Below the pieces are notes generated by a model, which saw nothing but the letters and a program-made list of their open reading frames with translations, did no database searches and had not been told where the DNA came from. Shown here piece by piece: positions 3,138 to 30,963 of a stretch of DNA of 49,289 nt. The translations under genes and the position numbers were made by a program. Every line of letters starts with the position of its first letter. The first letter of the stretch is position 1. Origin of the DNA: a virus; IMG/VR virus record IMGVR_UViG_3300031952_000026, positions 1-49,289 of that record. One strand, 5' to 3'.

Positions 3138-4433
3138 TTATAAGCCATCAATTTCAGTAAAACGACCGTGCTTGCCGTTAAATTCAATACCTACTTCACC
3201 AGTTCTGCCGTGCCTATTTTTTGCAACAATAAGTTTTCCACTTTCTGAAAAATAACTTTCAGTCTTGTCTTCACAACGATCACGATGTAAAATTATTGCA
3301 ACATCTGCATCCTCTTCAATTCCGCCAGAGCTTTTAAAATCATTAATTGTTGGTTCTTGATTGCTTCCTTCAACTGCTTTACGATTGATTTGTGCTAGAG
3401 CTAAAATTCCAACATCATATTGCTTTGCTAGAGCTTTGAGCATAGTAGTATTTTCTTTAATTATTGAAGCCTCATTTTTCCACTTAGTGTCATCGCCCTT
3501 GATTATTTGCACATAATCAACAATAACTAGATCAACTGGCTGTTTTTCAATTTGATTCTTTATAATTCTAGCAATTTGACTAATTCTTAAATAAGAGCTA
3601 TCATTTGTAAAAATTTGCATTGCTGCTAATTCTTTTTTAGCTCTTTGAACATCTTGAAGCTCGTCTTGCCGCAAAATATTTCTTCCAATTTTCCAAGCTT
3701 CAACACTGCTAAGATTCGATAAGAATTTCAAAATCACATTTCTTTTATCAACTTCTAGTGAAATAAATAGACATTTTTTACCTCTTTTGCTTGCGTTTAA
3801 GATTATGTTTTGAGCTACTGAGGTCTTGCCTACGGAGGGTCTAGCTCCAATTATTACTAGTTGTTGATTATGAATACCGCCATTCAAAATATTATCTAAT
3901 TTAGAAAATCCTGTTGGCGTAAATTTTTCAGATAAACCAGTCGCTAAATCCGTTTCTAATTCATCTAATAATTCTTTGATATGTTGGGTCTTTTTCTTCG
4001 GTTCTTGAATAGCTAAACCAGCTAATTCATTCTCAAGATTAGCGGCAATATTATCAAATTCTTTATCATTCAAAGCTTCCAAAGAATTTGTTAGTAAAAT
4101 ATGCAATTCTCTTTTTTGCCAAAGCTCAATCATATGATAAGCGTAGTCCCTAATGTCTATAACTCCAGTTGCTTTTGATATTAAAGTTGAAAGATATAAA
4201 ACTCCGCCCGATTCAGATATTATTTCGTTATTTTCAAAAAATTGTTTTAGAGTAACTTCATTTGAAACTCCACCAATTGCAACTTCAATAAGCCTTCTCC
4301 AAACAACTTTATTTTGAACAAAATAAAAATGCTCTTCTCTAAGCAGATCAGCTATTGAACTAGCGTATGCGTTATTCATTATGATCGTGCCTAAAATTAT
4401 TTGTTCTGCTTCTAAATTTGTATATTTTTCCAT
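3138..4433 (-). CDS. dnaB: Replicative DNA helicase, DnaB family
   Basis: Hexameric 5'-3' helicase that unwinds the replication fork and recruits primase. About 431 residues starting MEKYTNLEAEQIILG. The N-terminal DnaB domain covers about 1-100; the RecA-like domain starts near 172 (TPTGFSKLDNILNGG). Walker A is GARPSVGKTS (196-205), Walker B VIVDYVQII with Asp near 306, and the C-terminal arginine region is IILHRDR. I chose this Met because it follows the upstream gene's stop. The gene lies directly after the replisome-organiser-like gene, so the pair probably forms the phage initiation complex. Confidence 0.95.
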   Translation of the reverse strand: MEKYTNLEAEQIILGTIIMNNAYASSIADLLREEHFYFVQNKVVWRRLIEVAIGGVSNEVTLKQFFENNEIISESGGVLYLSTLISKATGVIDIRDYAYHMIELWQKRELHILLTNSLEALNDKEFDNIAANLENELAGLAIQEPKKKTQHIKELLDELETDLATGLSEKFTPTGFSKLDNILNGGIHNQQLVIIGARPSVGKTSVAQNIILNASKRGKKCLFISLEVDKRNVILKFLSNLSSVEAWKIGRNILRQDELQDVQRAKKELAAMQIFTNDSSYLRISQIARIIKNQIEKQPVDLVIVDYVQIIKGDDTKWKNEASIIKENTTMLKALAKQYDVGILALAQINRKAVEGSNQEPTINDFKSSGGIEEDADVAIILHRDRCEDKTESYFSESGKLIVAKNRHGRTGEVGIEFNGKHGRFTEIDGL

Positions 4434-4437
4434 AAAT

Positions 4438-5205
4438 TTAATATTTAAATTCAAGATCATTAGTTCCTAGTTCCGAAGATATTTTTTGTTTTATTTCATC
4501 TCTGGAGATTTGAGATAAATCTTTTAATGCGTAATAATCCTCTTTTTTGTCAAAATATAAAGCTGCCTTATTTGAGCCAGAGACGATAATCTTTGTTATC
4601 AATGTACTCTTAGCTATTTTATTCACAAAATCGCATAATGGTTGATTTGTGTTCTGTTTTGGGGTATTTGGATTGTCTATTATTTTATTTTCCCAAGTTA
4701 TTAGTTTTTGTTTCCAATTTTTTACTTGATTATTCTTAGCATCTTTCCAATTTCCAGTTTCGTAGTAATCAAAGAATTTTTTTGGATCAACGCCATTTTT
4801 TCTTTCTTCGCAATAATTTTTTATTTCTTCAAAAGTAGGTTTTCTAAAACCTTTAGGTTTTTCTTTCTTATTCTTATTATCACTATCATTATCATTATCA
4901 TTATCATTCTCTGCTAAGTTTGCTACCTTTTGCTTGCATTTGCTAGCATTTGCTACCTTTTGCTTACCACCCTTTGAACCCGCTAATTTTCTAGCTTCGC
5001 AGACATTATTATATTTTATTCCGTCTCTTTTAAATTGATTTAAAAACGGAGTTGTTGCCATCTCCATCGCAAAATCTAACTCTTGAAGTTCTCCAGTTTT
5101 TTTAAAATAATAAAGAATTTTAATGAATTTTCCAGCTTGTTCGTCAGTCATTTTTTCTAAAATAACTAAGCTGTCTTGATGTAATATGAATGATTTTTGT
5201 GGCAT
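4438..5205 (-). CDS. Replisome organiser-like protein (DUF6291-type N-terminus)
   Basis: A 255-residue protein just upstream of dnaB, in the position of a phage replication initiator or helicase loader. The N-terminus (KSFILHQDSLVILEKMTDEQ) matches the DUF6291 pattern. The region KPTFEEIKNYCEERKNGVDP to VKNWKQKLITWE is a domain common in phage replication proteins. Between them lies a low-complexity linker with four or more Asn-Asp repeats, coded by ATCATT repeats on the plus strand. It is the first gene behind the leftward promoter and structured leader at 5206-5308. The role is inferred from domain and position. Confidence 0.75.
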   Translation of the reverse strand: MPQKSFILHQDSLVILEKMTDEQAGKFIKILYYFKKTGELQELDFAMEMATTPFLNQFKRDGIKYNNVCEARKLAGSKGGKQKVANASKCKQKVANLAENDNDNDNDSDNKNKKEKPKGFRKPTFEEIKNYCEERKNGVDPKKFFDYYETGNWKDAKNNQVKNWKQKLITWENKIIDNPNTPKQNTNQPLCDFVNKIAKSTLITKIIVSGSNKAALYFDKKEDYYALKDLSQISRDEIKQKISSELGTNDLEFKY

Positions 5206-5232
5206 GATGACCTTAATATTTAATATTATATT

Positions 5233-5274
5233 CTCGAAACAAGGCAGGGAAAGGTTTCGAGGACTTTCCCCTTG
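5233..5274 (-). promoter_or_regulatory. Structured 5' leader of the replication operon, possible H-type pseudoknot
   Basis: Two complementary pairs interleave: CTCGAAAC (5233-5240) with GTTTCGAG (5254-5261), and GGGAAAG (5247-5253) with CTTTCCC (5264-5270). The second is extendable by CAAG (5240-5243) with CTTG (5271-5274). Interleaved arms define an H-type pseudoknot or two exclusive hairpins. The block is clearly GC-richer than its surroundings and lies between the promoter at 5280-5308 and the ATG at 5205, so it is probably a transcribed leader. Ligand or protein partner unknown. Confidence 0.6.
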
Positions 5275-5279
5275 GGACC

Positions 5280-5308
5280 AGCATAAATTATCTATAAATT
5301 ACTATCAA
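5280..5308 (-). promoter_or_regulatory. Leftward sigma70-like promoter for the replication operon
   Basis: Read on the minus strand: TTGATA (5308-5303), a 17-base spacer, TATGCT (5285-5280). Transcription would start near 5273, at the edge of the pseudoknot region, and run into the replisome-organiser, helicase and dUTPase genes. Confidence 0.55.
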
Positions 5309-5345: not shown

Positions 5346-5630
5346 TTGTTTGATTTTGATACACTATTAATTTCTTGGCGTCGTGAAAATGCTTGGTGGT
5401 TTTCCGTGGTAGATATTGTTGAAGCTGTTGCAGAAACATCTAGACCAGAAACATATTGGACAGATTTAAAGAGGAAGCTTGATAAAGAAGGCTTTTCTGA
5501 GTTACACGATAAAATCGTGAAACTGAAAATGGCTTCACCTAAAGACGGAAAAATGTATTCAACAGATTGCGCTGATACAGAAACACTTTTTCGTTTAATT
5601 CAATCTATTCCATCTCCAAAAGAAGGGTAA
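5346..5630 (+). pseudogene. Truncated DinD/Bro-N-type antirepressor remnant
   Basis: A 94-residue rightward frame within a leftward region. WWFSVVDIVEAVAETSRPETYWTDLKRKL, KMYSTDCADTETLFRLIQSIPSPK and the general order match the N-terminal Bro-N domain of DinD-like phage antirepressors. In complete members the domain continues well beyond the SPK motif; here it stops two residues later. The only in-frame start is TTG at 5346 and no Shine-Dalgarno is seen. I read it as a broken gene left by rearrangement, though a short expressed Bro-N domain cannot be excluded. Confidence 0.65.
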
Positions 5631-5662: not shown

Positions 5663-5706
5663 TAAAGTTTAACTAAAGTTTAACTAAAGTTTAGATAAAG
5701 TTATAA
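5663..5706. repeat. Four tandem 11-bp iteron-like repeats
   Basis: Two exact copies of TAAAGTTTAAC (5663-5673, 5674-5684), then TAAAGTTTAGA (5685-5695) and TAAAGTTATAA (5696-5706), head to tail at an 11-bp period, about one helical turn. They follow a short GC-richer stretch and overlap the end of the leftward Cys-rich gene. They could be a protein-binding array such as replication iterons or an operator. Confidence 0.7.
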
Positions 5707-6879: not shown

Positions 6880-7442
6880 AAATCGTTATTAGTCTGTGTT
6901 ATTATTCCATCCAAAACAAAATGTTTAGAATTGTCACGTCTACCTTTTATTGATTTGTAAATAATTGATTTATAAGCGAAACATACAGCATAGTATAAAA
7001 TATCCCTTGCATCAATATTCCATGCTTTAATATCCCTTGCATCAATATCCCATGCATCAATATCCCATGCATCAATATCCCATGCTTCAATATTCCATGC
7101 TTCAATATTCCGCGCATCAATATTCCATGCTTTAATATTCCGCGCATCAATATTCCGCGCATCAATATTCCATGCTTTAATATCCCTTGCATCAATATTC
7201 CATGCTTTAATATTCCGCGCTTCAATATTCCATGCTTTAATATTCCATGCTTCAATATTCCGCGCATCAATATTCCATGCTTTAATATTCCGCGCTTTAA
7301 TATTCCGCGCTTCAATATTCCGCGCTTCAATATTAGCTTTAATTTTAATGTTACAATCTATCTTTAAATCATCGTCAATAATAATGTTGTTATTACCATC
7401 AATTAATGCTTCTAGTTCTTGTTGTGTGTTTATTATTTTCAT
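6876..7442 (-). CDS. Pentapeptide-repeat protein (NIEAR/NIDAW type)
   Basis: About 188 residues. After a 35-residue cap (MKIINTQQELEALIDG...), more than 20 tandem pentapeptides of the form A-R/W-N/D-I-K/E/D follow, expected to wind as a right-handed quadrilateral beta-helix. The C-terminal cap (YYAVCFAYKSI...KSIKGRRDNSKHFVLDG) resembles that of related phage and bacterial proteins. Some beta-helices of this class mimic DNA, but the mixed K/R and D/E here does not show a strongly acidic surface. The in-frame TTG at 7451 is a poorer start than the ATG at 7442. Function unknown. Confidence 0.8.
   Translation of the reverse strand: MKIINTQQELEALIDGNNNIIIDDDLKIDCNIKIKANIEARNIEARNIKARNIKAWNIDARNIEAWNIKAWNIEARNIKAWNIDARDIKAWNIDARNIDARNIKAWNIDARNIEAWNIEAWDIDAWDIDAWDIDARDIKAWNIDARDILYYAVCFAYKSIIYKSIKGRRDNSKHFVLDGIITQTNNDL
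7005..7335. repeat. 15-bp tandem repeat array inside the pentapeptide gene
   Basis: About 22 copies of a 15-base unit (ATTCCATGCTTTAAT and variants CGCGC/CATGC/CTTGC). Each unit codes one pentapeptide. Variants occur in runs of identical neighbours, as expected from slippage or unequal recombination. Confidence 0.95.
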
Positions 7443-13657: not shown

Positions 13658-13807
13658 ATTATTTTTTATTTAAGATTGTTAAAATTGTTATTAAAGATTG
13701 TTATTAAATATATTTTAAAGGATATATAACTAATAGTAAAGAAGTTATTTAATTTATTTTAAACAATTGTTTTATTTTGACATAATTTTATAAAATATAC
13801 GAAATAC

Positions 13808-13836
13808 TTGATTATTTATAAAAAATTAATTATCAT
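13808..13836 (+). promoter_or_regulatory. Rightward sigma70-like promoter candidate before the terL block
   Basis: TTGATT (13808-13813), 17-base spacer, TATCAT (13831-13836), about 30 bases before the HTH gene. Plausible in an AT-rich background where chance matches are frequent. Confidence 0.35.
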
Positions 13837-13866
13837 TTATTTTTTTACTAAATTATTTCTAATAAA

Positions 13867-20911: not shown

Positions 20912-21045
20912 TTTGATATAATATTTTTTTTGATATTCTTTTTCTTTTTGGCTGTATTCAATTTTTATTGAGCCTTTTTTTGATATAATATTTTTTTTGA
21001 TATTCTTTTTCTTTTTGGCTGTATTCAATTTTTATTGAGCCTTTT
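20912..21045. repeat. Perfect 67-bp tandem duplication
   Basis: 20912-20978 is identical to 20979-21045 (TTTGATATAATATTTT... to ...TTGAGCCTTTT). It lies at the 3' end of the leftward gene 20958-21368 and is not a multiple of three, so it moved that gene's stop codon. Confidence 0.95.
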
Positions 21046-29641: not shown

Positions 29642-30963
29642 AAACAAAGGATATTGTAAATCAAATAAAAGCTATTTTGCCAAAATATACTAATGATTTT
29701 ACTAGCAATAATGTTATTAGTTCATTAACTAGAAGCGGTTCAACAGTAACAGCAATAACCTCTAGTCCTCATAATTTAGCAATCAATAAATTAGCCTTAA
29801 TTAATGGTGCAAAAACTCCTATTTTAATAGATAGTTTAACTCAAAAAAATGGCGTTGCAATAGCTATAACAAATACAGAGCATAATCTTTATAAAGGTTT
29901 AACAACAACTGAAATATCTGGAGCTAATCAAGTTCAGTATAATGGAATCAAAACAATAATTACTCCTCCAATTCTAGAAATTGAATCAATTTCTATTTTG
30001 GGAAATATAGCAACAGTAACAACTGTTAAAGATCATGGCTATTTAGTAAATTCAAAATTTAATGTCAGGATCTTTAATGTTAAACAAAGCGCATATAATA
30101 AAGATACTCTAATTAACTCAATCCCAACACCGAAAACATTTACTTATACGGTTTATGGCACATCAGAAAATGCAGTTAATGCTTTTGGAAAAATGATGCA
30201 AGTTCAACAGCTTGAAAATAGTTACATAATTAATTTCAGTGTTGATAATAGCGCTTTAAGCCCAGCAACTGGCGTAATCTATCAACTTTCAAATTACCAA
30301 GATGGCTATAATGGATATAAAACTATTCTAACAGTACCAACCCCTACTAGCTTTACTTATTTAATAGATTCTAGCCCACTATCTCCAGCACAGGGTACTA
30401 TCAGTGTTAGAAATAATCCAACTGTAAGCGGAGCTATAAATCTTGATATGGCGATTGCTCATTTTGAAACAGAATTTATTAGTAATCAAAATAATTGGAT
30501 TTATGTAATAGCAGAAGATGAAGTAACTAGCCGCAATAATAAATCAAAAACTGATGCTATTAGCTATGCTGCAAATGGTTATGCTTTACGAGAGCAAAAT
30601 ATTCAAATGATTAATGTATACCTTTTTTTAAGGTCACAAAACGAATTGTTACATTCTGACACAAGAGATAAAGCAGTGTCTTATAAACAGCCATTATGTA
30701 AAGCATTATTAGGCTTTAAAGCTCCAAGTGTGTTTACTGATAATTTGTATTCATCGCTTTTGCTTATAAACAATGGTTCAGAAATATTTAATCAAAGCTA
30801 CTATGTCCACCGCTTTACTTTTGAGGCTACAAATTATTATACTAATTGCGATGCAATAGAACCATCAGATTTAAGCGCGTTTAGAGTGTTTGATTTTGAG
30901 TTAAAAGATTTTGATAATAATACAATTGCCTTAATGGGTGGTTTGATAGATCAAAATTATTAG
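29638..30963 (+). CDS. Tail terminator-like protein with inserted beta domains
   Basis: 441 residues, far longer than a usual terminator (about 150-200). The ends (MKTKDIVNQIKAILPKY... and INLDMAIAHFETEFISNQNNWIYVIAE...FEATNYYTNCDAI) suit a terminator/gp37-like protein. Between them, residues about 25-260, lie three beta modules of the type GSTVTAITSSPHNL, GNIATVTTVKDHGYL and FTYLIDSSPLSPAQGTI. The same module type occurs in the baseplate protein at 38827-40374. Confidence 0.6.
   Translation: MKTKDIVNQIKAILPKYTNDFTSNNVISSLTRSGSTVTAITSSPHNLAINKLALINGAKTPILIDSLTQKNGVAIAITNTEHNLYKGLTTTEISGANQVQYNGIKTIITPPILEIESISILGNIATVTTVKDHGYLVNSKFNVRIFNVKQSAYNKDTLINSIPTPKTFTYTVYGTSENAVNAFGKMMQVQQLENSYIINFSVDNSALSPATGVIYQLSNYQDGYNGYKTILTVPTPTSFTYLIDSSPLSPAQGTISVRNNPTVSGAINLDMAIAHFETEFISNQNNWIYVIAEDEVTSRNNKSKTDAISYAANGYALREQNIQMINVYLFLRSQNELLHSDTRDKAVSYKQPLCKALLGFKAPSVFTDNLYSSLLLINNGSEIFNQSYYVHRFTFEATNYYTNCDAIEPSDLSAFRVFDFELKDFDNNTIALMGGLIDQNY

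Follow-up and report, generated by a model that had tools for sequence, protein, structure and literature searches.

Leader pseudoknots that control phage replication genes have so far been known from a few model phages. In the gene 32 leader of phage T4 the pseudoknot has a short L1 and no spacer between its stems, and in plasmid leaders such as those of IncI/IncB repZ and pT181 repC a pseudoknot or attenuator RNA fold upstream of the gene sets the expression of the initiator. The T4 knot is located upstream of the start codon and is followed by unstructured A+U-rich UUAA(A) repeats that extend over the ribosome-binding site (PMC3014915). In the case of phage P4, the CI RNA pairs with an upstream (seqA) and a downstream (seqC) site and terminates transcription of the replication genes (PMC4825925). 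The STAXI motif (RF01728) is a small pseudoknot found near DNA-handling genes, where it occurs in two or usually three copies (PMC2864571). Literature searches on phage leader pseudoknots recovered no description of the class of leaders presented here, and DUF6291 was not named in them.

The window, i.e. the entire 49,289-base stretch under analysis, is an IMG/VR phage record; genes for the terminase, portal and capsid are found farther along. Its minus strand bears a leader that can form a pseudoknot, located after a sigma-70-like promoter and ahead of the ATG of a gene for a DUF6291 protein (PF19808; 4438..5205, minus strand), a putative lambda-O-like replication initiator, and the next gene of the operon codes for a DnaB-like replicative helicase (3138..4460, minus strand). 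A preliminary description had placed a pseudoknot-like leader RNA ahead of the replication operon, between a promoter and the first ATG, and this layout is borne out by the promoter-like site TTGATA-17-TATGCT (5308-5280, minus strand; TTGATG-17-TATACT in the relatives L016 and L002) and the start codon at 5205. A start of transcription downstream of 5233 was also looked for; the sole promoter-like site puts the start upstream of the arms, at a predicted position of about 5274-5272. With a start at about 5274, S1 would lie at the extreme 5' end of the mRNA.

S1 is a hairpin formed by a 5' arm GGGAAAG (5264..5270, minus strand) that pairs with a 3' arm CTTTCCC (5247..5253, minus strand), and it can be extended across a 3-nt bulge by CAAG (5274-5271) and CTTG (5243-5240) on the same strand. 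S2 is formed by CTCGAAAC (5254..5261, minus strand) and GTTTCGAG (5233..5240, minus strand), with base 5240 common to this stem and to the extension of S1. The two stems are interleaved and measure 7 and 8 bp, the former extendable by 4, exactly as had been claimed. L1 consists of UC and zero nucleotides separate the 5' arm of S2 (S2a) from the 3' arm of S1 (S1b), as in the T4 knot. The L3 linker TGCCTT (UGCCUU in the RNA; 5241..5246, minus strand) has GCCCTT as its counterpart at the same place in L017, and part of it could instead pair with the Shine-Dalgarno sequence AAGG. The latter (5214-5211), 5 nt upstream of the start codon, is carried by an A+U-rich spacer (5206..5232, minus strand) that has no U-run after S2. 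This spacer includes UUAAA and UUAA; such an A+U-rich UUAA(A) stretch is partly kept in L016 and absent in L017. The GC-rich island noted earlier is likewise present, with 53% G+C against 29.8% for the whole window, a value reached by 0.4% of 53-nt windows.

Nested folding gave no signal for the window leader (z about 0), as is expected given that nested folding cannot form both stems. A general score for interleaved stems was borderline for this leader alone (p=0.044), while none of 2000 shuffles reached its score for compact H-type knots (p=0.0005). The same p-value was obtained for L016 and L017, and 0.002 for L021, and the leader is the strongest compact H-type element in the window, a tandem repeat excepted. 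The compact H-type geometry was picked after the element had been seen, and therefore the comparison with relatives weighs more; thresholds were set in the course of the analysis, and the collections searched are incomplete.

The N-domains of L002 and L016 are 94% identical to that of the window, and their leader is the same as the window's. Between the window and L016 the 39-nt core shows 2 changes, both in a single S2 pair (the outermost, C-G becoming G-C), against 28 differing columns of the 108 aligned in the flanks (Fisher p=0.005). Uncompensated changes in the arms, which would speak against the structure, were thus sought and none was found in this closest relative. A block of about 517 bp (90%), comprising the promoter, leader, N-domain and repeats, is kept between the window and L002/L016, while the C-terminal part of the initiator gene and the next gene are replaced, which indicates that the leader and the head of the initiator travel together. 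A module swap is seen here (3001-4414 in L002, 3138-5205 in the window): after the common initiator head, the window has DnaB and L002 a DnaC-like loader. Both L017 (66%) and L021 (60%) have compact knots at the same place that are unrelated in sequence to the window's, and the window, L016 and L017 share a compact form without a U-run. Pattern searches for further close relatives of the window leader recovered only L002 and L010, the first pattern having given none, and a DNA similarity search of the leader region against phage records found no match. With a single close relative in the collections searched, the covariation for the exact window element amounts to one pair. In a search for repeated sites the leader was found to be single-copy in its record, on which ground antitermination through repeated sites within one genome was rejected. 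Separately, a contig of 35,238 bases binned with a Thermoplasmata archaeon MAG (L084) has the same leader and DUF6291 start as the viral contig L017 (35,244 bases), and it is therefore probably a misbinned phage.

For a wider comparison, DUF6291 loci were drawn from searches of viral contigs, a genome search and phage records. Loci in which the DUF6291 gene starts the operon after a gap of at least 100 nt were taken as having a leader, and those in which another gene abuts it as leaderless. Interleaved stems were recovered at p<=0.05 in 29 of the 41 non-redundant leaders, and at p<=0.01 in 18 (combined p 2e-30), with 12 of the 41 missing the p<=0.05 level. The leaderless loci yielded 3 cases in 46 (combined p 0.20), one of which (L178) really is a leader, and other intergenic regions 20 in 102, several of these being the same architecture before a neighboring gene. 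Among stem pairs the excess is one of interleaving over nesting, with a Wilcoxon p of 1.6e-4 for the leaders and 0.96 for the controls. The leaders directly follow a promoter of the TAnnTTTG or sigma-70-like type and precede the start codon, and they usually present the order promoter, S1a, A-rich linker, S2a, S1b, short linker, S2b, often a U-run, and start codon. In most relatives S2 is reminiscent of an intrinsic terminator, has a U-run and ends roughly 5-25 nt before the start codon. The arm sequences are wholly different between phages while the topology is kept, and within alignable groups compensated changes are seen, such as S1 TGAGACC/GGTCTCA versus GCGAAC/GTTCGC, and CGTCGTCAA/TTGACGGCG versus CCACGTCAA/TTGACGTGG; several apparent breaks of arms in these groups are alignment slips across indels. 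The window leader is one of a class of phage leaders united by their topology, position and sense while differing in sequence, and the pseudoknotted structure described earlier is well supported by the shuffles, the relatives and the excess of the interleaved topology.

Searches for other features common to these leaders were negative. Rfam covariance models at their curated thresholds, including c4 and STAXI, matched neither the window nor 20 relatives, and no unpaired core common to the leaders was found by inspection. As for a conserved leader peptide, an ATG is present in the linker in 15 of 36 leaders against 12.7 expected (p=0.21). A survey of Bacteroidota genomes found DUF6291 in 4 of 395, adding little. 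Having no conserved letters, the class would be missed by sequence-based searches.

Comparable knots are also encountered before genes other than DUF6291. In several phages they occur ahead of a small gene preceding DUF6291, in the Flavobacterium phage tooticki ahead of an HNH endonuclease and gp035, and in the Cellulophaga phage phi19:3 ahead of YopX (p=0.016). The cultured examples are Cellulophaga phi19:3 and phi13:2 and Riemerella RAP44, the last with such knots ahead of two antirepressor operons; no such knot precedes the DUF6291 gene of RAP44 itself. When compared with whole-genome shuffles, RAP44, tooticki gp035 and phi19:3 gp007 are strong, and the weaker cases before genes other than DUF6291 are not individually significant. 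The two RAP44 (L189) leaders, at 13723-13866 and 30426-30556, are paralogous, precede antirepressor gene pairs and have an S1 of 15 bp, with arms that differ between the copies in a compensated manner. The S1a sequence recurs over each start codon. S1b has two complements, S1a and a 12-nt stretch over the start codon, and these covary in the two copies (p=0.003-0.005). In L018 and L079, CAACCAC is repeated just before the ATG (p=0.003 and 0.007), which is not above chance in a wider search. A second complement to S1b is likewise not above chance in most leaders, including that of the window (p=0.9), and a second target as a general rule was rejected, such targets being confined to RAP44 and L018/L079.

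These observations allow known modes of leader control to be weighed against the locus. The preliminary description had offered a replication protein that binds its own leader, as in T4 gene 32. In autogenous repression of this kind, DUF6291 or a phage single-strand-binding protein would nucleate on the knot and, by spreading along the A+U-rich spacer, reach the ribosome-binding site. The part of this model concerning geometry and layout stands, as the window has an H-type knot in a phage replication-gene leader and an A+U-rich stretch with UUAAA and UUAA over the ribosome-binding site. The first gene of the operon, however, codes for the DUF6291 initiator and not a gp32-like single-strand-binding protein; no protein of the latter kind was recognized among the window proteins scanned, and a fold search with DUF6291 gave no significant structural match. 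Moreover, the arms are unrelated or much changed between loci with near-identical N-domains (L026/L028 and L033/L035), and similar leaders precede YopX, HNH endonuclease and antirepressor operons, due to which sequence-specific self-repression by DUF6291 is disfavored and the model as a whole appears rather unlikely. The fast turnover of the arms would suit immunity or copy control in the manner of the P4 CI and P1/P7 C4 RNAs, with which the class shares a leader before replication or antirepressor genes, a terminator and a loop complementary to an upstream site. Here, a short leader RNA ended at S2 would expose S1b in its loop and pair, in cis or in trans, with S1a and the gene start region, shutting off replication or antirepressor genes, and the diversity of arms would be a diversity of immunity groups. 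The downstream target that this calls for is present in RAP44 and, before the ATG, in L018/L079, but the latter do not rise above chance in the wider search, the second complement is missing in the window and most other leaders, and there is no match to the c4 family at Rfam thresholds, so that we regard this reading as unlikely. The plasmid leaders of IncI/IncB repZ and pT181 repC are comparable in having an RNA fold upstream of a replication initiator, but no antisense gene was recognized here, and fold and genes differ. STAXI is similarly a small pseudoknot near DNA-handling genes, whereas the window knot is single-copy, lacks a conserved core and has no Rfam match. A small-molecule riboswitch, also suggested earlier, would account for a pseudoknotted 5' leader near the ribosome-binding site, but the lack of a conserved unpaired ligand core across the leaders and of an Rfam match, together with downstream genes that have no common metabolite, makes it very improbable.

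The same leaders speak to the question of whether the signal resides in RNA or DNA. Two dyad repressor sites just downstream of the promoter, with RNA folding being incidental, could produce a similar picture: the 8-nt arms of the second repeat are about 20 bp apart from centre to centre, at the promoter, and symmetric changes in operators would mimic compensation, of which the window alone has one instance. Against this, the arms are spaced very differently from leader to leader, with linkers from 1 to tens of nucleotides, and the excess is specific to interleaving. Further, the stems were detected by Watson-Crick pairs only, a procedure blind to strand, with mismatches being counted on extension, and in the sense of the gene these comprised 20 G.U and 1 A.C (p=2e-5; 2 and 2 in controls). 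Such a preponderance of G.U over A.C is not expected of operators and indicates that the signal is RNA, rendering DNA operators quite improbable. The arms are complementary and conserved, and the signal is RNA-like and on the strand of the gene; the window knot has no mismatches, and its own evidence for RNA and strand comes from the relatives.

Homologs of DUF6291 are annotated as 'replication protein' in the Flavobacterium elemo and Riemerella RAP44 phages, and five iteron-like repeats of about 10 bp (TTTGCTACCA) are present inside the window gene (4919-4969), which together suggest that DUF6291 is a lambda-O-like initiator whose gene contains the origin. The repeats, which adjoin an array of ATTATC hexamers (4876-4908), are a candidate replication origin. 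Several other features of the window are recorded here. On the other side of the leader, an apparently truncated BRO gene, a divergent ORF of 94 aa with a Bro-N domain only (5346-5630, plus strand), points away from the replication operon. An array of 11-bp direct repeats (TAAAGTTTAAC; 5663-5702) separates the leader from the YopX region, and L002 has a longer form of it (about 2660-2745). A 15-bp unit occurs 22 times within a predicted ORF (6999-7334), resembling a pentapeptide-repeat gene, and a similar repeat is encoded in L002. There is also a perfect tandem duplication of 67 bp (20912-21045), and at the contig end a 9-bp unit, GCTGCAACC, is present 18 times (61-226).

Taken together, the observations make it very probable that the knot is a genuine element controlling phage replication. 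We consider it somewhat better than an even chance that the knot, as a cis-acting RNA in the 5' leader of the replication operon, gates expression of the initiator. The transcript would fold into an H-type pseudoknot right after the promoter, enclosing the 5' end of the mRNA and standing just upstream of the ribosome-binding region of the initiator. In most members S2 is a terminator-like hairpin with a loop that pairs with the 5' portion of the leader, and such folding should lead to attenuation of transcription as well as to hindrance of ribosomes, a natural reading wherever the U-run of S2 is close to the start codon. The attenuator reading is drawn from relatives in which a U-run is present, and since the window has none its mechanism may be a different one, control of translation or of mRNA stability being more likely. 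In the window, the gate would most likely act on translation initiation or on the stability of the mRNA 5' end, through the knot and the A+U-rich spacer bearing the Shine-Dalgarno sequence. A lowering or gating effect of the knot on expression of the initiator is our inference, as is the step concerned. A more speculative and broader proposal, to which we assign a small chance, is that these leaders form an undescribed and widespread class of phage RNAs, with a pseudoknot kept by topology alone and arms diversifying like an immunity determinant. Acting in cis or released as short RNAs, they would shut off replication-initiator and antirepressor genes, providing superinfection immunity or copy control, with the window knot being a terminator-less branch.

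A class of leaders with conserved topology and variable sequence can thus be traced in many phages from the environment and in cultured phages of Cellulophaga and Riemerella, in most cases before the initiator gene. If the knot gates the initiator, the control of replication in these phages would be directly testable in laboratory strains, and if the arms set immunity groups, they would constitute a new natural system of RNA specificity.
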